Of a stretch of 64,000 bases of DNA, positions 17,901-50,900 are shown piece by piece; the stretch's first letter is position 1; every line of letters starts with the position of its first letter. Location of the stretch: positions 93,331,319 to 93,395,318 of the forward strand of contig CP136066.1 in the NCBI GenBank assembly GCA_032622095.1. The letters are read 5' to 3'. Made by a program: the position numbers and the translations under genes. The notes under the pieces are model-generated. The model saw only the letters and a list, made by a program, of their open reading frames with translations. It was not told where the DNA came from and made no database searches. Source of the DNA: Siphonodentalium dalli (Eukaryota > Mollusca > Scaphopoda > Gadilida > Siphonodentaliidae).

Positions 17901-20900
17901 TTGGTTTGGAACTACTCAAATCAGTATGTCAGTCTGTTCATCTATGGGTGCGTTCAACTTACATTTCCAGAGCATAACTTAGGTGCGTAGAACATTCCCG
18001 CCACTGGCTGTCATGGGGGGGGGGGGGGGGGGGGGGGGGGGGTATCCTTAGTCTCATTGGGATAACCCACCTTTAGTTGTCTCCAGTTTGCAAGTCTGTG
18101 TACCCATTTAGTGGGCCCATGCAGGACAATGTGGCATCCCCATTGCTCACAGCTTATGTGACCACCATAAAACAATGGCTAGAGTGTTCAACTTGTAGTC
18201 GCTGTCAACACAGCAACATGAGTTTGATGCCGCTGAGTTTTGCAACCAGTAGCTAGGTTTTGAGTTAACCCTTTACCCAACAGAACGTTTTTTTTTACTC
18301 TGTGCCAATGCATTCTCTTATATATGTGAGTCGACCATAGGTCGCCTCGCATATATAAGAGAATGCATTGGCTTAACACATTAAAAATGATAAAATTGTC
18401 AAAGAATGTAGAAAAATATTAAAAAAATTGTTAAAAAATGTAAGAAAAAATTATAAAATGTTTTTTTTTAGGCCAATGCATTCTCTTATATATGTGAGGC
18501 GACCTATGGTCGACTCGCATATATCAGAGAATGCATTGGCACAGAGCATAACTGTAACCATCACAATGTGGTCAATGAACCGGTTCCAATGATATCCATA
18601 TTTGTATGGTGTTATTGAGACAGACCGAAGATATTTAGGCTGTTGAAGCTTTATTTGGGCGTTTTTGGCCGTTTTGTTGGGTAAAGGGTTAAAGTTTAGT
18701 GTGACTGTAAATTTCCACGCTGTTCAAATCTAGCGCATAGTTGTGACTCTTAGCAAGGTCACTCATACTGTACTCGGTACATTGTACCTAGAAGTGAAAT
18801 AGGCACCTGGATAAACATGTTCATGTTCACAAAATTCAGGAATCTCCAGTCATGGAAGGGTTAACTGCTATCTTGATAGGAATCTTTTTGCCCTATTTTG
18901 ATTTGGACTGAAAACCCATAATCCCTAATGGTGTACATGTACATATCACAGCACTTGATAAATAGGATGCAATTTTATAGTTCATAATCAATATTTGTGA
19001 ACATTGCCCACATCATCGTACCATAATTTGCAGGGAATAAATATTTATACTTTTGTTATTAAAAACAATAGAATTACCTACCGTCATTGTCATCACATTC
19101 AATAGATTGAAAGATGAAAGAAATTTATGCCACTCCCCATAGTGTGAACATTAACCCTGTAGCTTACTAGCCATCAGCAAGCCTGCAAATAGTGTGGCTG
19201 TCATTTGCAGAATGAGGTCCCCAGAGGGTGAATTTAGTGATGCTATCCATCACAGCAGGCTAGCATCATCAAATTCACCCACTGGGGACCTCATTCTGCT
19301 TAGGCATCAACTACTTAGGCAGACCTAGGATCAGGCTGAATTTCCTCAGTTGAAGTTGGTGATTTTCACCCATTAGTGATCTCGATTATACAATTTATCT
19401 TCTGCAAATTATGGGATATAGAAACTGAACAGAAGAGAAAAACTAACTAAAAAACAATGGTAATTTAAGACTATAAGATACCTCCCAGAAGATGAGACCT
19501 AAAGTACAATGAGGTGCCCAGAGGGCGACTTTGGTGATGGTAGCCCACTGTGGGCTACGTCACTACATTCACCCACTGGGGACCTCATTCTGCAAATGAC
19601 AGACACACTATTTTAAGGCTTGTAGCCATCAATGGATGCCATAAATTTACTCCATCAAATATTAGTCAGTCCTGGTCTAATTCAACTGACTGGTTGACAA
19701 CCATCCTATTCTGGGGTTGTGCGATGTTCAAAATGATAATATGTCAGACTACATCATTATATGATGGGTCAGATGATGAGGGTGCAGGTTCTACTTTCCA
19801 GCTGACTTATTTTGTCATGAGTGTGGTGTGTAATCTCAGGGACATAGCTTGACGCTCTCTGTTGGGTGGATGTCCACTTTGGATTTACATCTGCAACCCA
19901 CCCCAAAATTTCTAAGATTCCAACAGGTACATGTACAGTAATGCTCTAATTAATCGACCTCTTAACCAAAGCAGAATTATGGGTAACTTTTCAGGATTTA
20001 GTCGGAAATATGGCTTGTTGCCATTCATCGGAAAGCTCTCCCCGAGAGCTTTCCGATGAATGGCAACAAGGCATATTTCCGACTAAATCCTGAAAAGTTA
20101 CCCATAATTCTGCTTTGGTTAAGAGGTCGATTAATTAGAGCATTACTGTACCTCAAGCTTTCTACTGTTGGACATTTCTAATCTAACACTCCCACAATGA
20201 TTGGAACTTTCCAACTGTAAAATTGTTTACTGAAGGTAGTAAAATATCAAACTATTGGTTTCAAAACAACACACTGGTTGGAATATCAAATTATCAGAAC
20301 AATTTGAACCTACTTTTGGTCTGAAGTATCCAATTAAATGTTGTGTTAGGCATGAAATTTCTAAATGTTGAACCCTTCCATGACTGGAGCTTCCTGAAAT
20401 TTTGCGAAAACCCTGTACCAATGCATTTTCTTATATGTGCGAGTCTCACATAGGAAACATCGCATATATAAGAGAATACATTGGCCTAACAATTTACCTT
20501 GACCTTGTAAGCCGGTGCAATCTCTTATATATGCGAGGCTCCCTATGGGAGACTCGCATATACTGGTATTAAAGAATTCACTGGCACAGGATCTTTAATG
20601 TTGTGCCAACGCAGCTCCCGTCATGAAAGAGTTAACAATTATGGCCAAAGTTGGGGGAGTGTTGAAACAGAATCCCCAACAAAAAAACTATTCCTCCACC
20701 TCTGTCGCTACTTTCTGTTTAAAACTTCAGTATGTATGGAGGGTGTACGTGATGTATTGTTTTGTTTCTCAATGGAATAATTTGTCATATAATGTTCAGT
20801 GGTCCATATCCTAGCACAAAGGTGTGATACAGTCCACTATGGAGTACCTTCATTATTAATTCATCATAGAGCTTGGCAGAAACAATGACCTCAGATAGCG

Positions 20901-29900: not shown

Positions 29901-32900
29901 GAAAGTATGCTGCCAATTTGACTTTGCCAGACTTCCTGGAGGAAAGATTCATTGTCCATGGAACGTTCCACCAAAAGCTATCACTGACTCAAATGTTGCA
30001 GAAAGGTATGTGGTTGAGGCCTGATGATTCAATCTTGCATTATCTACTCAATTCATTTGTTTTCAAAATGGGAATGAACCCTTTTATAGCTGAGTTCTCA
30101 ACGATTAATAGGATGTTTGATTCCAAGTGATTTACATGAATGCCCTAAATAATCGACTCTTAACCACATCAGAATTATGGGTAACTTTTCAGGATTTAGT
30201 CGGAAATATGGCTTATTGCCATTCATCGGAAAGCTCTCAGTGAGAGCTTTCCGTTGAATGCAACAAGCTATTTTCCGACTAAATCCTGAAAAATTACCCA
30301 TAATTCTGCTGTGGTTAAGCAGTCGATTATTTAGGGCATTACTGTACAAGTTCTACAGATATTCTTAGGCTGTTTATTGAACTTTTTAGTTGAACTTCTC
30401 TACAAAGGAAACCTGAGATTGGTTTTTGGCTTACATTGAACAATTGTTGTATTTCCTAGATCGAAGGCCTAAGCAGAATTAGGTCCCCAGAGGGTTAATT
30501 TAGTGATGCTAGCCCGCTGTGCGTGATAGCGTCAATAAATTCACCCTCGGAGGACCTCATTCTGCAAATGACAGACACGCTATATCAGGCTTGTTATCTA
30601 CCATGCTTGAAATTGCTTAGAATGCCACAAATTTAGGGCTGAAAGCTGGTCTGTTGGTACAGTGCCTTCGCTGAAGTCAACAATAGCTGAAAGAATAGTG
30701 AAGGGCTGGTAATTTAGTTGCATGGTTTACCAACATAGTGATATAGTGGATATGTGAGCTTCCCTAATATGGTTAGATGTCAAAGTAATTTTATCTATGA
30801 ATGTGTCTTGATGTTTAAACGTTGTTCGTTGTAACAATTTAGAGTAAACTTTACTGTTACAGGCCGAAACATTTAATTTATATTTTTGTAGCAGTAAAAG
30901 AAATAAAATAATTCAGTCATCAGCAGCACATATTCCAATTGTTTGTCTGTTGGGAATTTGAGTTTCACTAGCACAAGGTGACATACTTTTTATTTTTATA
31001 TGGTAAATTTTTCCCTATTTTATTTTAGAGCATCAGTGCTTCTTGATCAGTACAGGAAGAAAGCCCAGCTATACAGGAGTAATGTCGTACTTGCTCCACT
31101 TGGAGACGATTTCCGCTATGATAACTCTCAAGAATGGGACAAACAATATCATAATTACCAACAACTGTTCAACTATATGAATGCCAACAAAGATCTTAAT
31201 GTAGAGGTAAGACAATGTTAGAAATATCTTGGTTACCATGTCCCTTTGTTACCATGTTACTAAGCCAGCCATAAAATTTGCGATGAACTGATTTTTTTCT
31301 CGCCTCTCGTTAACCCAAATCAAAAGTGGGGAAACAGTTTCATGATCATCATAGCCATAATAGCTTGAATAGCTCTCATTCATGGAGAGTTGGATCATCT
31401 ATATATATAACAGCCAAGTGTTTTTCTCTGTGCCGGTGTGTGCGTATCTGCATTTATCTGTCAAAAATGTTGGCAGTTACAAAAATATATATTGCGCCCA
31501 AATTTTGACCATGGGTGGACATCACCAACTTCAACTGGGGAACTTCAATCTGATACTAGTTCTCCCATAGCAGTTGAGGCCTCAGCAGAATGAGGTTCTC
31601 AGAGGGTGAATTTGGAAATGCTAGCCCGCCATGTGAGATAGCATTACTACATCAATCTGATCCTAGATCTCCCATAGCAGTTGAGACCTCAGCAGAATGA
31701 GGTTCCCAGAGGGTAAATTTGGTGATACTAGCCCAAATACTAGCATGTGGGGACCTCATTCTGCAAGTGACAGACACACTATTTCAAGGCTTCTTTAACA
31801 ATGTGCACCTTTAACCCTTTCAGTGCCAAGTCCGATTTTTGTATCAACCCATATTTCCTTGATCATTTTTCAAATTTATTGATTATAATAATGTGATACA
31901 TTGATGGAAAGAGCTCTAAGAGTTGGCACTGAAAGGGTTAACAACATGCTTCCCTTTACTACTACAGGCTCAGTTTGGCACTCTGTCTGATTACTTCAAT
32001 GCGATATATGAGGAATTTAAAGTTGAACCTGGATCAAAATTACCTGAATACCCGTCACTTTCTGGTGACTTCTTCACATACGCTGATAGGGAGGATAACT
32101 ACTGGAGCGGTTACTACACAACGAGACCATTCTACAAAAGTCTCGATAGAATAATGGAGTACCATGTCAGGTGAGTTGTGTCTATTAAACGAGATAATTC
32201 TACAAAAGTCTCGACAGAATAATAGAGTACCATGTCAGGTGAGTGGTGTATATTAAACGAGATCATTCTACAAAAGTCTTGATAGAATAATGGAGTACCA
32301 TGTCAGGTGAGTGGTGTATATTAAACGAGATCATTCTACAAAAGTCTTGATAGAATAATGGAGTACCATGTCAGGTGAGTTGTGTCTATTAAACGAGATA
32401 ATTCTACAAAAGTCTCGACAGAATAATAGAGTACCATGTCAGGTGAGTGGTGTATATTAAACGAGATCATTCTACAAAAGTCTTGATAGAATAATGGAGT
32501 ACCATGTCAGGTGAGTGGTGTATATTAAACGAGATCATTCTACAAAAGTCTTGATAGAATAATGGAGTACCATGTCAGGTGAGTGGTGCCTATTAAATGA
32601 GATCATTCTACAAAAGTCTCGATAGAATAATAGAGTACCATGTCAGGTGAGTGGTGCCTATTAAAAATTAATTACACTGCGCCTTTCCGCAAAAGGCTAT
32701 ATATCAGATTAGGTGGAGACAATGGCTCACCATGATGTATTCATTGTTTCATATTTGCATGAACAATTAATAAATTTTTTATCAAATTGGCCATATTATG
32801 ATCAAAAATTTCTGACTGACATGTCCCTCAACTCCGATCAAGTTTGAAAATCGATGTCACTCCACCCCTCACGTCGAGGTGTGAACAGGTGCCAGTAGCC

Positions 32901-35900
32901 CAGACTGTGATGATGGTGTTCACGATCTACCAACCTCAGCTACAGGGACATCCCGAACACTTTCATGACGGGAGCTGCGCTGGTGCAGCATTAAATATCA
33001 TGTGTCAGTGCATTCTCTTATATATGTGAGTCTATCATAGGGAGCCTCGCATATATAAGAGAATGCACTTTGCAAACAAGGTCAAGATAAATATTGTTAG
33101 GCCAATGTATTATATTATATATGTGATGCACCATATGGGAGACTCACATATATAAGAGAATTCATTGGCACATGGTTTTTGCTAAATTTCCGGAAGCTTT
33201 GGTCATGGAAGGGTTAAAAGGGAAACCCTTATATTGAGAGTTGAGTTGCGTAACAGTCTGAAAATGGGTTTGAAATGTTATACAGAATGGATCTACCATT
33301 CCAGAACTGCACAATGCACTTCCTTTGTAATTTGCATTCTGTAACAATATTTTGTTTATGGCACTATCAGAATATGTATCAGAATGGAGTTCCTGATTCA
33401 GTATAATACATTCATTGCTTTGTATGCGCGTGAACAAACTATAATTTTTTATCGAAAATCAAAATGGCCATGTTACAATCAGAATGGTAAATTGAGATGT
33501 CCCTCAACTCAGATCAAGCTTGAAAATCTGTTCCGTTTGTCACCCATGTATGTGTTGATATTTTTCGTGAGCAATATCAAATTTATCAAAATCAAAAGTA
33601 TTGTTTAGACATGGACAGAGCCTGACTTTTTCAGTGGCCTTATGAATAAAGCAAAATACTGAATATTTTTGTTTCAGAGCGGCTGAAGTTATCTTCACTA
33701 TGGCAAGAACATTTGCAGCAAAAAATTATATGAAAAATTACCCTGTGGTGATGTTCATGAAATCTATGATAACCGCTCGGAGGAACCTCGGACTGTTCCA
33801 ACACCATGACGGTATAACAGGTACAGCCAAGGACCAAGTCGTCGTTGACTATGGACAGAGGTAAGAGGTCATATACTGTCTGCTGTCTCTATTTAAGAAA
33901 TCAAAACCTTATATATTCTACCAATCAGCAACTGAGATGGTCGCTGCTGCATCGAGAATTGTTTGTTCACCCCATCTTTGATTTCTTCACATAATTGTGT
34001 TAAAGATGCATAATCCGATTAAGCACACCTCAATTACTATTTATTTGGATTCGGGGGTAAAAAATATTTGAATCGAGTCGAGGAACCCACCTATCAAATC
34101 TCAGAGTTATTAGATATCGATTTTTTAAATCAATTATTTTTCAACATTGAGACATATTAGTAGCCCAGTAAAAAGTTGTCGAGCCGACGGCCTCTGACCA
34201 AATTGGAGATCGATAACTCTAAAATCAAGAGTCTTTGTGTTGCTAATAAGGCAAAATTACGTCAAACAACATGTTGATAGATAACACGTTTCGGGCAATT
34301 TTATACTATAGTTGATAGTGGTTAGCATTATTTTTGGGCAATTAATTGATTCTGATAACTAAAGCGGTATTTCTAAAAATGTTGTTGTTGGAATCTGATT
34401 ATATGGGGACCATCGAATCGGATTGAGTACCTTTAAATTTTTTATTTTCAAACAACTTTTTTGTTGTCAAATGACTCAAATCATAATATACTGAAACTTT
34501 TATTTGTGCAATGATGTTTGAAAAGAATTCATGAGTATAACACTATTTTTCTTTTGCATGACACTTGTCATATTTTTCACAATTAAAGATGAAAAGAATG
34601 TATATTCTCGGATGTACTATGGCATATAGACGGGAACTGTAAAACTAATTAAACTATTTCTGCAGACTTCTTTCTCCTAGCAATCGTAAGCTCCTCCCAA
34701 TAATTAATATGTGTGGAAACCTCCATTATTAGCCATCTATGCACCACCTTATATTAATAGATTTATGAATCTCAATTTCCTTGCTGACATTTCATATTAT
34801 GATGTTTCAGATTGATAGATTCGATGATAGATATGAAGAAACTGATAGCAGAATCTGCGACTTTCCTCGCGATGGATGATAGATCCAAATATGAGCGATC
34901 AGAGAATACACCAATTTTTAACATGGTATGGTATAAGATTCATTCTTTTGAATATCACTTCATATTTGAAAGGCCACATATAGTGAATTTCTCATTTCTC
35001 AGGTCCGATTGCTTGGTCCCGAAACCCCGCTTTAATATGCAACCTTTTTATTTGCCTTTTAAATGCGGAAAATTTTAATGGTATGAAATAATTGCAGTAC
35101 ATATGTTTTGACAAACATGCTTGAAAGTGAGATTGATGGCTGTGAGAAAGGGGATGGCAGAAAGACCATCTTGTTGGACTATTCCAGCACCTCTCCTATC
35201 CTATCCTATCGAACAGAACCGTTCCTTGTTCAGAATACTGTAAGTAACTAACTATGTCCATTCATGTTAAAAACATGAAGAATGAAGACTGCAATATCAG
35301 TCAAAAATGTGTCAGTGATTCTTGATTGGATTATTTGGACAAAATAAATTGCACAGAATCCATCAACAACATTTTTACGGACATATGTTCGGGAAATATT
35401 GGCCACAGGTAACTGAAATTGGACCCGGAGCTAGCCGATGCGGAGGTGGATCGTTTATCGGCATGTGCCATAGAAATAAAAAATGAAATAAAAAATCACG
35501 TTCACACATTCTTTTCAAAATATGTTTGCCTGAGAAACTTGAAAATGACTTTGCATGGCCTAACAGTAATTATATTTGTTATAAACATTGAACAATAGGT
35601 ATATTATCTGGAATATTCATAGCTGTTTTTGGGTGGATACCAAGGACAAAACATATGTTTATATTCGCAAGCAGTTTGCTAATTGTCTGGTTTACAAATG
35701 AAAAAATGTTGTATTCACTCAGAAACACTAGATTTTTTTGATTATATGCATTTCCTATGAAATTCACCATATTCAACAATGAAGTTACTCATTATAATAT
35801 TTAATTGCTGCAAGAAAGGCAACAGCTGCCCGATCACCCAGTGTTATATTACAGGCCACCACAGTGTAATATAGTTCTCCTATGGTGATATTCACATGTT

Positions 35901-41900: not shown

Positions 41901-44900
41901 AGTGTGGTCACCTGATACTCTTGCTGAAGACTGCTTGCTTCAGACCAGTTTACCATCTGTCATTACAAGACATGACATTAGCTAAACAACTATTCTACCA
42001 GAGTCTACAAGAATAAATAGGAATAGTCCATTGTTCATTTCTCCAAGCCTGGACATAGTGTGTCTGACATTTGCAGAATGAAGTCCCCAGATGGTGAATT
42101 TAGTGTTGCTATCCCATACAGCAGGCTAGCATAACCAAATACACCCTCAATTACCTTATTCTGCTTAGGCCTCATCTTTTGGGACAAATTGTTTTTTAAA
42201 CATGTTTTAAAATTTGAAAAAAGTGACACCATTATAACATCTGCAGAGTTATGAAACTTTACTCTTTAATGAAATTATGGAAACATTCCACCCTCCCCCA
42301 CCCACCCCCTCCCACATGGCCCAGACCCAACCTTGCCATCAACCAACATCCCTTCCAAGCCATATCACCTCTCAATTTAATACCTCTTCTCACCACAGAG
42401 GCATATATATCTGTAAAGGTACAGGTCATTAATTATATAAACAGGCCAGATGACATGTATTATTCTAATCTAAACATATCTGTAGCAATTTAACAACAAA
42501 CTGGTGCTCCCATGGTTATGTGATGACCGACATTCAATGATACTGTGAATGGCTTTGATTTCTTCAAGTCTGGAAATAGTGTGTCTGACATTTACATAGT
42601 GAGGTCCCCAGATGGTGAATTTAGTGTTGCTACCCCATACAGCATGCTAGCATCACCAAATACACCCGCCAGGGACCTAATTCTGCTTAGTCCTCATCTT
42701 CTGGGAAGTATCCTAAGTATCAAATTGACAGTTTGATTTAGTCACTTTTTCCACCTGTTCAGTTTCAATGTCCCCCTAATTTGCAGAAGATAAAATGCAT
42801 AATTGAGGTGCTTAATGGGTGTGTATCACCAACTTCAACTGTAGGACTTCATTGATTTAGTCACTTTTTTCCACCTGTTCAGTTTCAATGTCCCCCTAAT
42901 TTGCAGAAGATAAAATGCATAATTGAGGTGCTCAATGGGTATGTACCACCAACTTCAACTGTAGGAGTTCAATCTGTTCCTTGGTTTTATTGGCCATTGA
43001 GGCCTAATCAGATTGAGGATGAATTTGGTGATGCTAGCCTGCCTTACAGAATATTGTCATTAAATCCACATTTTTGGGACCTAATTCTGCAAATGTCAGA
43101 CATACTAAATTCAGGTTTGGCCATTTCATATTATTGTTTTAATCACCACTTATCCATACGACTAATATTCAAAGAGAAATGGGGGGGGGGCGGTATATAT
43201 TGGATTAAATTTGTCTTCTATCTGTCAGGCTTCCATCCGTCTGCCTGTTGAGATGTCTATCCATCCATCTATCAACAATTGATTTCTTCTCCATATTAAA
43301 GACGGAATGTGTTTATATAGTTCAGTGTGCATGTTCCCTAGGTGTCTCAAAATAAGATTTGTTCAATTAAGTTCTTCACATCAAATACATGTAGGTGCCA
43401 AGTCAGGGCCATAACTCTTTCCCTCCATAGTAAGTCTTAAAACAGTTTTTTCTAAAGAACCATTAGGCCTATATAGCTTATAGCTTGGTATGGAGGGGCC
43501 TTGGGTGACTGGGGTTCAGATTTGTTCATGGGGTCATTTTTAGGAAATGAGGTCCCCAGAGGGTGAATTCGGTGATGTTAGTCCACCTTGCGGAATATTG
43601 TCATTAAATTCACCTGCAAAGGTCAGACACTAAATACAGACTCGGCTGTTCCAATATTAGTTTCTTAACCAGCACTTATCCAGGTGAAATCATACCCTGA
43701 TTTTTCAAAGAAAATTGGGGGGTATATTGATATTACTAGATGAATGGATCTCATAGATGAGGATTCACATTTGTTCTAATAGGGGCAGAGATAAGAGATT
43801 TAACTCTCCTCTATGCTGTGTGGTACTGGTATAATAATATTGATTTCTAGACAGCCTGGGTGGGGGCAATGTTTGAGGCAATGGGGAGGGAGCGCTCAAT
43901 TTAACCAAACAAAATAAAATATATATATTTTTTATTTTTAATAAATATTTTTTTTTATTAAATAAAATATTTTTTATTTAAATAAAATAAAAAACATTTA
44001 ATTAAAATTTTGAAGAACTTATGACATTACATCTTTGGGGGGGGGGGGGGGGTAGGTACCTCTAGTCTCCCCACTAAATTTGGTTGAAATCAGGGGTTTG
44101 GGAGAAAAGATGAACAGACAGATGTACAGAAATGTTCAGTAAATTCCTTTTAATACCAGTATCTGTGCATTCCCATTACAAGTCAACTCTGCTCTGAACT
44201 GACAGACATGACACATGTTGTTTATAATCAGGGCCAGATAGAAAGATAAGAGAACTTCTGTAGCTATAGGCAGAGTCCCCAGGGAGTGTATTCATGTCAT
44301 TCATAATTTAAATGAGATTAATGGTGTTGTACATTTGTTTTCTGAAGTTGTCAGTAGCACCATCATTGTTTACAATACAATGGTCATTAATATCAGATTA
44401 AATTCATTTTCTCAGAGCTTTAAGTGTGTCTGGCATTTGTAGAATCATGAGGTTCCCAGAGGCTAGCATCGCCAAATACATCCTATGAGGACCTCATTCT
44501 GCTTATGCTTCATCTTCTGGGAAGTATCTAGAGTCTCAAATTGACATTTTTAGCAGCTCTTTTCCCTTCTGTTCAGATTTTAAAATGCATAATTGAGGTG
44601 TTAAATGGGTGAGCATACTGTCATATGTCAGTAATTTCACCAACTTCAGCTGGAGAACTTCTGTCTGTCCCTAGGTCTCCCATAGCAGTTGAGGACTAAG
44701 TAAAATTGGGTTCCCAGATGGTGAATTTGGTGATGCTAGCCTACCTTACAGAATAGCATCACTACATTCACCCTTTTGGGACCTCAGACACACTAAATTC
44801 ACGCTTGGCTGTTCCAATATTATTTTCTTAACCACTTAGCTATGTGACCTCATTATACCTTATTATGGACAAAAAAGTGTGGGGGTATATTGGATTAAAT

Positions 44901-47900: not shown

Positions 47901-50900
47901 CCGTAATTGTTTGTATGCGCGAGCTAATGGCCACGCGTTGGGGTCTCCATTGGTAATCGCGGCAGTAATCCGGACTCCGTAAGCCTGTAATTCGCTCAAT
48001 GTTGGGGCAAACTCAGGAAGGCAGGAACTTAATCGACCGGACACATGCCAATGAGGTCATTCCACGAAAAGATTATTCCTTTACTTCCTGGTTATACGGT
48101 AAACACAACGTTTTCTTTCTCTCATTTTAAATGTGATTTCACGTTCTCTTTTTCAAAAGAAAAATAGTTTTCAATAACATCCGTATATCGCAATGTTATT
48201 TGGGCAAAATTAACATTTTCTTTTTAGTAAACGCTAATACTACACGACCCTATTTGAAACTCCAGTAGTGGGTCATCTTGGCACATTTGATCTTCTGGTG
48301 ATTTCCGACAACAGCATTGTAGTGTGCTCTGTCATCAAAGGGACTCTAGGTTTCCTACAAATTTTCCTTTTGTTCCTAATTACATGTTTGGTTCACTATA
48401 TGTAGAATTCTATCCATTCGACTTCTTCCGGCTATCTTACAGGGTTGGTGCAACTATTTCGGCGAGAATCTCTTCCCGGTCATTAGTAAAGATTATCGGT
48501 CCATGATATTTCAATCATACCATGGATTAATGGGTGTCTGAGCCCTTTTTAGCTCACCTGAGACGAAGTCTCCGGTGGAGCTATAGTCATCACTCCTCGT
48601 CCGTCATCCGTCCGTCCGTCCATCCGTCCGTCAACAATTCTTTGAACATCTTCTCCTCTGAAACCGGAAGACCGAATTGGTTCATATTTGGTGTGGATGT
48701 TCCCTAGGTGACTCTCATTCAGATTTGTTCAAATGAGGTCATTGCGAAGCCAGGGCCATAACTCTATCCCTCCATAGTAATTCTTACAACGACTTCTTGT
48801 TCAGAACCATTTGGCCGATTTAGCTAATATTTGGTATGGAGGGTCCTTGGGTGACTGGTGTTCAGATTTGTTCAAATGAGGTCACCCGGTCAATTAGTTG
48901 AGAAACCAGGGCCATAACTCATAGTAATTCTTACAATGACTTCTTCTAAAAAAATATTTGGCCGATTTAGCTTATATTTGGTACAGAGATACCTTGGGTG
49001 ACTGGGGTTCAGATTTGTTCAAATGGGGTCACTGGGTCAAATAGGGGCAGAGCCAGGGACATAACTTTAAAAATAAAAAAATAATTTTTTGCATTTTGAC
49101 CTTTCATTTTTGTTTAGGACACATCACAGCCTCATATTTCTTACCTAGATTTTTCTTAGCATGTTCTTCATCTGTATGGATTTTGGTATTGGTATTGTTT
49201 ATTTAACCCCTTCCACTCTTGTTTTGATATATAATTCATCCAAGACAGGATTACTCAAACATTTTTCATCTGATCAACACCAAATTTGGTATATGAATTT
49301 TTGACACTTATATACAGATCAAGTTAAAATATGGGTTTGATCCGATATATTTTAACAGAGTTATGGCCCTTTATAATTCACACCTCTTTGCTATGCACTA
49401 TTAATTTTTAAGAGAACACTGAAGCCTGTATTATTGAAAAAGCCAATTTATCATAGTGTGGTCACCCGATACTCTTGCTGAAGACTGCTTGCTTCAGACC
49501 AGTTTACCATCTGTCATTACAAGACATGACATTAGCTAAACAACTATTCTACCATAGTCTACAAGGAATAGTTCATTGTTCATTTCTCCAAGCCTGGACA
49601 TAGTGTGTCTGACATTTGCAGAATGAAATGAGCATTTCCTATCTTTCCTATCAGGTTTTGGTCTTTTCATGCGTTCAGTTTCTATGGCCAGTCTATGAGC
49701 ACTCAGCCTCATAGAGTTAACAAACGACGGTTATTCGTTACAGAAACAGTGTTTCCACTTTACAAGGGAATGAAGTCCCCAGATGGTGAATTTAGTGTTG
49801 CTACCCCATACAACAGGCTAGCATCACCAAATACACCCTCAATTACCTTATTCTGCTTAGGCCTCATCTTCTGGGACAATTTTTTTTTAAACATGTTTAA
49901 AAATTTGAAAAAAGTGACACCATTATATATAACATCTGCAGAGTTATGAAACTTTACTCTTTAATGAAATTATGGAAACATTCCACCCTCCCCCACCCAC
50001 CCCTCCCACATGGCCCAGGCCCAACCCTGCCATCAACCAACATCCCTTCCAAGCCATATCACCTCTCAATTTAATACCTCTTCTCACCACAGAGGCATAT
50101 ATATCTGTAAAGGTACAGGTCATTAATTATATAAACTGGCCAGATGACATGTATTATTCTAATCTAAACATATCTGTAGCAATTTAACAACAAACTGGTG
50201 CTTCCATTGTTAGGTGATGACTGACATTCAATGATACTGTGAATGGCTTTGATTTCTTCAAGTCCGGAAATAGTGTGTCTGACATTTACATAGTGAGGTC
50301 CCCAGATGGTGAATTTAGTGTTGCTACCCCATACAGCATGCTAGCATCACCAAATACACACGCCAGGGACCTAATTCTGCTTAGTCCTCATCTTCTTGGA
50401 AGTATCCTAAGTATCAAATTGACAGTTTGATTTAGTCACTTTTTCCGCCTGTTCAGTTTCAATGTCCCCCTAATTTGCAGAAGATAAAATGCATAATTGA
50501 GGTGCTCAATGGGTGTGTATCACCAACTTCAACTGTCAGACATACTAAATTCAGGTTTGGCCATTTCATATTATTGTTTTAATCACCACTTATCCAGATG
50601 AAATCATACGACTAATATTCAAAGAAAAATGGGGGGGGGCTATATATTGGATTAAATTTGTCTTCTATCTGGCATTTGCAGAATGAGGTCCCCAGAGGGT
50701 GAATTTAGTTATGCTACCCTGCACAGCAGTCTAGCATCACCAAATACACTAGCCAGGGTCCTCATTCTGCTTAGGCCTCATCTTCTGGGAAGTATATAGG
50801 CACTTAAATTGACATTTTTACTTACTTTAGCCCTTCTGTTTAGTTTCTATATCCCCTAATTTGTGAATATAAAATGCATAATTGAGGTGCCCAATGGGTG

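Follow-up and report, generated by a model that had tools for sequence, protein, structure and literature searches.

Candidate "mirage" minisatellite with eight identical 5' splice sites at an exon end of an alpha-mannosidase II gene in the scaphopod Siphonodentalium dalli

Which of several equally strong 5' splice sites in a row wins, and why, is presented as an open question in a published account (PMC6002489). The question is raised by a stretch of 64,000 nucleotides from the Siphonodentalium dalli genome (assembly GCA_032622095.1, contig CP136066.1, positions 93,331,319 to 93,395,318 of the forward strand; hereafter the window), in which the end of a predicted coding exon of an animal-type Golgi alpha-mannosidase II gene (MAN2A) is repeated in tandem together with its splice donor. 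Minisatellites that span an exon-intron boundary are described as "mirages" in genes of amphioxus, a cephalochordate (PMC3087553, PMC3902484), and the MAN2A array is probably a donor-spanning minisatellite of this kind, in which donor 1 would be used in nearly all transcripts and copies 2-8 would be intronic passengers. Donor arrays were found in several genes with few to dozens of copies, and thus provide natural repeats of identical-donor choice. It is this recurrence, rather than the single array, that deserves attention, as it turns an old question about donor choice into a plain RNA-seq task.

The array and its host gene

Tandem Repeats Finder (TRF) delimited a 68-bp tandem array at 32120-32665 (8.0 copies, 94% matches, 0% indels). 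When the array was cut into units starting at 32121 + 68k, each unit comprised 50 exonic and 18 intronic bases, and 9 of the 68 columns were variable. On the plus strand, CAGGTGAGT was present at 32168 + 68k in 8/8 units, confirming the eight intact, identical CAG|GTGAGT donors at 68-bp spacing reported in the first-pass annotation; its division of the unit into 51 + 17 bases describes the same array, its boundary being shifted by a single ambiguous A. Pairs of units differed at no more than 6 of the 68 sites, with units 2 and 5 and units 3 and 6 identical and units 1 and 4 differing at two sites. Unit tails followed the order a-b-b-a-b-b-c-c, in agreement with the seven letters given earlier (a-b-b-a-b-b-c), to which the eighth unit adds a second c. 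The second-level duplication of 204 bp also held, as a 236-bp stretch was repeated exactly at +204 bp (Table 1); because of this exact repetition, the three-unit growth step is the latest one and recent.

No other tandem array in the window had at least 2.8 copies, a period of 25-150 bp and at least 75% matches. Outside the array, the window held one further CAGGTGAGT (17582) and one CAGGTAAGT (60655), both of which we read as exon ends of the same mannosidase gene, and neither motif was found on the minus strand of the window. A 601-bp stretch at the array had a single match in the genome (2.23 Gb in 9 contigs, one assembly), and a transposon origin of the array was rejected on this basis.

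The exon that ends in the array, preceded by the acceptor TACTACTACAG, matched Drosophila Golgi alpha-mannosidase II (1hty) with a phmmer E value of 5e-21, and the same exon joined to the next one matched PF09261 (Alpha-mann_mid) with E 2.2e-19. The assignment to MAN2A was tested on these two exons, and the other exons were recognised by eye in open frames; the earlier label "exon 9" agrees with the latter if a further exon is present upstream of 17240. With the exon edge at 32170 and the donor GT at 32171-32172, the AG left by donor 1 joins the A of the next exon and restores an arginine. Every other donor leads at once into a TGA, as had been claimed from the sequence, and the distance from this stop to the junction would be 64 nt with donor 2, rising to 472 nt with donor 8.

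Table 1. Features of the MAN2A array region (positions within the window) and array-bearing exons with family matches elsewhere in the genome
Feature	Position	Strand	Remark
Coding exon ("exon 9"), predicted Golgi-type alpha-mannosidase II (GH38)	31968..32170	+	ends in phase AG|
Tandem array, 8 units x 68 bp	32121..32664	+	unit 1 overlaps exon, units 2-8 intronic
236-bp stretch, exact match 204 bp downstream	32145..32380	+	second-level duplication of three units
Donor 1, CAG|GTGAGT	32168..32176	+	sole frame-keeping donor
Intron, 1507 bp	32171..33677	+	contains donor copies 2-8
TGA stop	32172..32174	+	met when donor 1 is skipped
Donor copy 2, CAGGTGAGT	32236..32244	+
Donor copies 3-8, all CAGGTGAGT	starts 32304, 32372, 32440, 32508, 32576, 32644	+
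Next coding exon	33678..33860	+	in frame with donor 1 only
EGF array exon			EGF_CA, E 2.3e-9
TSP1 array exon			TSP_1, E 5.3e-7
MBOAT array exon			MBOAT, E 2.6e-6
Ankyrin array exon (L053)	C4:194.2M		ankyrin, E 2.2e-9
BCL7 array exon			BCL7, E 6.2e-9
Fucolectin array exon (L052)	C4:54.1M		fucose-binding lectin 3cqo, 4.7e-7; best single stretch 0.0026
nAChR array exon			nicotinic acetylcholine receptor 8a5u, 0.0015; best stretch 0.0083; 13/15 residues identical

Recurrence of donor arrays and the reading frame

A first genome search, for three consecutive CAGGTRAGT, returned satellites together with an EGF exon end carrying 16 exact donors in a row; a large satellite near C1:232M was among the matches. 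A strict pattern of three CAGGTGAGT with gaps of 53-72, which surveyed donor-side arrays, gave 308 matches. Among the matches listed, which lie on contigs 1-4, there were at least 12 places; 10 of these 12 resembled exon ends by acceptor and open frame (judged by eye, not blind), and in 7 of them the array-bearing exon had a family match (Table 1). A TM9SF-like exon was recognised by eye, with a weak EMP70 match (0.063) and no PDB match, and two further places were exon-like ends, one at C3:48.6M by acceptor and open frame and one at C4:248.97M for which no PDB match was found. The places at C3:229.05M and C4:29.6M were not exonic in appearance. A second, neighbouring pattern added five places on contigs 1-3 (C1:8.88M, C1:33.2M, C2:165.6M, C2:223.6M and C3:2.69M), of which three were exon-end-like by eye and none of the three scanned had a family match. 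The combined count over 17 places was thus 7 with family matches and 13 that were exon-like by eye.

The longest array (L044), of 59-bp period, runs from C3:2694083 past 2698394, with 28 exact donors in the part examined. It starts at an exon-like TTGTTTCAG|GGATGAAG...CTACAG|GTGAGT without a family match, and almost all of its units, spanning more than 4 kb, contain CAGGTGAGT. At C1:95775866-95778952, a 57-bp array of about 99 copies (L038) carries CAGGTAAGT in many units, and no exon was seen there. Two distant, near-identical loci, L036 (C1:24.3M) and L037 (C1:28.1M), both contain a tandem array (54 bp x 3) that bears CAGGTAAGT, is not exonic-looking and may have been brought there by a dispersed element.

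We then compared the reading frames behind the arrays in nine genes (MAN2A, EGF, TSP1, TM9SF-like, nAChR, MBOAT, fucolectin, ankyrin and BCL7). Donor 1 kept the frame in 9/9 genes, and all donors from the third on met a stop in 9/9 genes within the DNA examined, which for five of the nine covered the array start only. Donor 2 met a stop in four genes, was open with a frameshift in three and was open in frame in two, namely ankyrin, with an addition of 39 nt, and fucolectin, with 162 nt; use of an array donor might lengthen the protein in these two cases. On this comparison, only the 5'-most donor would yield the ancestral protein in 9/9 genes.

Donor choice and competing explanations

We propose that a 68-bp segment spanning the end of this MAN2A exon was duplicated in tandem and that the array then grew, last by the exact 204-bp step. 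Copies 2-8 would be removed with the intron as passengers, and donor 1 would win as it is transcribed first and may pair across the exon with the upstream acceptor before the copies compete. The reading frame makes use of donor 1 most likely, and the earlier suggestion that the spliceosome must ignore seven perfect decoys agrees with this expectation at MAN2A and likewise in the eight other genes. The number of units in the MAN2A array probably also differs between individuals.

Several points weigh against this reading. The predicted energy of U1 pairing was -13.3 kcal/mol at most donors but -12.2 at donors 1 and 4, a slight disadvantage for donor 1, whose modelled accessibility (0.0005) was no higher than that of the copies (0.0004-0.0023), so that modelled strength gives no reason for choosing donor 1. 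The intron-proximal of two comparable 5' sites is described as favoured, for a reason that the source calls unknown (PMC6002489), and this preference would favour a later copy at MAN2A. Furthermore, the donor was among the least variable stretches in the EGF array (6/70 windows as low) and in L044 (7/59), which could hint at constraint on the copies; in the arrays L042 and L035 it was not among the least variable stretches. As neither U1 pairing nor structure favours donor 1, the choice, if donor 1 is indeed used, must rest on position or timing; donor 1 is unique in being transcribed before all copies and in its proximity to the upstream acceptor. The donor arrays would then be either exceptions to the intron-proximal preference or evidence that context decides. 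In MAN2A itself, no variable column fell within the donor 9-mer, but this has a chance probability of 0.25 and 19 of the 68 nine-base windows of the unit were as invariant as the donor; variation gives no sign of special protection for the copies.

The same lack of clear constraint bears on the truncation switch raised in the first-pass annotation, in which a regulated share of transcripts would use later donors, stop after donor 1 and undergo nonsense-mediated decay (NMD), so that output drops as copies rise. All seven later donors place the TGA 64-472 nt before the junction, which is far enough for the NMD rule of about 50 nt; the MAN2A donors are equally strong. Published mirages, however, reportedly leave splicing undisturbed: reverse-transcription PCR suggests regular splicing of the amphioxus globins (PMC3087553), and the Adh and TnC mirages are reported to generate no aberrant mRNAs (PMC3902484). 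We consider such a switch unlikely, and its scaling with copy number found no support. Selection might instead keep the arrays as platforms, with unspliced extra donors binding U1 small nuclear ribonucleoprotein and aiding exon definition or blocking early polyadenylation. The donors of the EGF array, of which 16/16 are exact, and the 28 exact donors in the examined part of L044 are consistent with this idea, as is the apparent over-representation of arrays at exon-like ends relative to a rough baseline. It is nevertheless quite improbable, given that 9 exact CAGGTRAGT remain across the roughly 16 units of the L035 array, that the consensus units of the TSP1 and L040 arrays, like that of L035, have no intact donor, and that the strict count of 7/17 gives no significant enrichment at a baseline share of at least 0.22.

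An assembly artefact, in which a shorter array was expanded during assembly, could explain the perfect 236-bp identity at the 204-bp step, and one amphioxus mirage is reported as misassembled in the draft (PMC3087553). Units differing at up to 6/68 sites mean that several true units must exist, and equal anatomy was found at many other loci, so that we regard this explanation as very unlikely. Recursive or stepwise splicing, in which each CAG|GT would serve as both acceptor and donor and units would be removed singly, can draw on the CAG|GT present in each unit; the recursive splice site motif Y5+N0-4YAGGT (PMC10156609) was found in 0/8 units, leaving this mode extremely improbable. Creation of a new intron at MAN2A was rejected on similar evidence, as no run of five pyrimidines lay 0-4 nt before CAG in any of the 8 units and the intron pre-exists.

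Relation to known boundary repeats and enrichment at donors

The units of the MAN2A array contain exon and intron, the terminal unit forms the true exon edge of a conserved gene, and AG/GT signals are present in 8/8 units; by these structural features we file it as a mirage. Amphioxus mirages are described in Adh3, the globins BflGb6 and BflGb9, TnC and PGBD5, with somatic instability at Adh3 (PMC3087553, PMC3902484), and those of the globins, with haplotypes of 6 and 3 units, are found at boundaries of both types, 5' and 3' (PMC3087553). Undisturbed splicing at MAN2A is a prediction from the reading frame, and the exact 204-bp step suggests that copy number there changed recently. The amphioxus cases include 3' boundaries, whereas our survey covered the donor side only; the MAN2A case differs in its host gene, in its 8/8 perfect donors and in belonging to a class that is recurrent in one genome. 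This recurrence, beyond the known amphioxus cases, is new here: we recognised no genome-wide mirage survey and no MAN2A mirage in the openly licensed literature, judged mostly by titles and the beginnings of abstracts.

Tandem duplication of an AG|GT-bearing stretch is also the basis of the Rogers model of intron gain through duplication of AGGT segments (PMC4974935). In MAN2A, by contrast, the intron pre-exists, the units lack an acceptor tract and the frame needs no new intron. In duplicated human genes, internal tandem repeats located at exon-intron boundaries are reported to alter splicing patterns (PMC2812944); both systems involve minisatellite expansion at exon edges, but the MAN2A protein is predicted from donor 1 only. 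In globin-gene experiments of 1983, duplicated 5' splice sites reportedly placed identical donors in a row in competition for one acceptor, whereas the arrays described here are natural, reach tens of copies and lie in conserved genes.

Whether such arrays are enriched at real donors was assessed against a reversed control pattern. The rows were 131 + 177 for the donor pattern and 118 + 6 for the control, both swollen by satellites; on contigs 1-4, the donor pattern gave at least 12 places among the matches listed and the control 5 (3 unit families). The single 9-mer occurred 11,859 times in the genome for CAGGTGAGT and 10,234 times for its reverse. Background models built on 95 kb gave 9,261 (order 1), 9,696 (order 2) and 15,044 (order 3) expected random occurrences of CAGGTGAGT, so that orders 1 and 2 leave about one fifth as real donors and order 3 leaves no excess. 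With a real-donor share of 0.18-0.24, the probability was 0.002-0.011 for 7 of the 12 places listed and 0.02-0.09 for 7/17, and the by-eye counts (10 of the 12 listed and 13/17) gave values below 1e-4, with exon calls that were not blind. Counting against enrichment, the exon-like or long open frames at L033, L035, L042, L044 and L040 had no convincing Pfam match in the five scanned. Several further arrays of 25-150 bp period were present in other loci examined, and tandem arrays are therefore common enough in this genome that chance overlaps with donors are expected.

These results give only a hint of enrichment. It is a doubtful, though conceivable, generalisation that 5' splice sites attract or retain tandem duplications in this genome, with arrays forming several-fold more often than at non-splice copies of the same 9-mer and in many conserved genes, where a strict rule that the first transcribed donor wins would make the arrays harmless, or useful as U1 platforms. 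If the enrichment is true, it would suggest a duplication process linked to donors and would inform models of intron change by tandem duplication.

Other repeats were observed in the window. An inverted repeat, CCTTTCAGTGCCAA / TTGGCACTGAAAGG, lies just upstream of exon 9 (31812-31829 and 31923-31941); it is probably a dispersed element resembling a miniature inverted-repeat transposable element, because one arm recurs at window position 1653. Hairpin-like repeats TTCTCTTATATATGTGAGTC occur in the MAN2A intron at 33005-33070 and 33100-33170, and similar stretches stand beside the L044 array. Two-copy tandem duplications were present at 42733-42971 (120 bp) and 48773-49066 (147 bp), and positions 18015-18042 form a run of 28 G.
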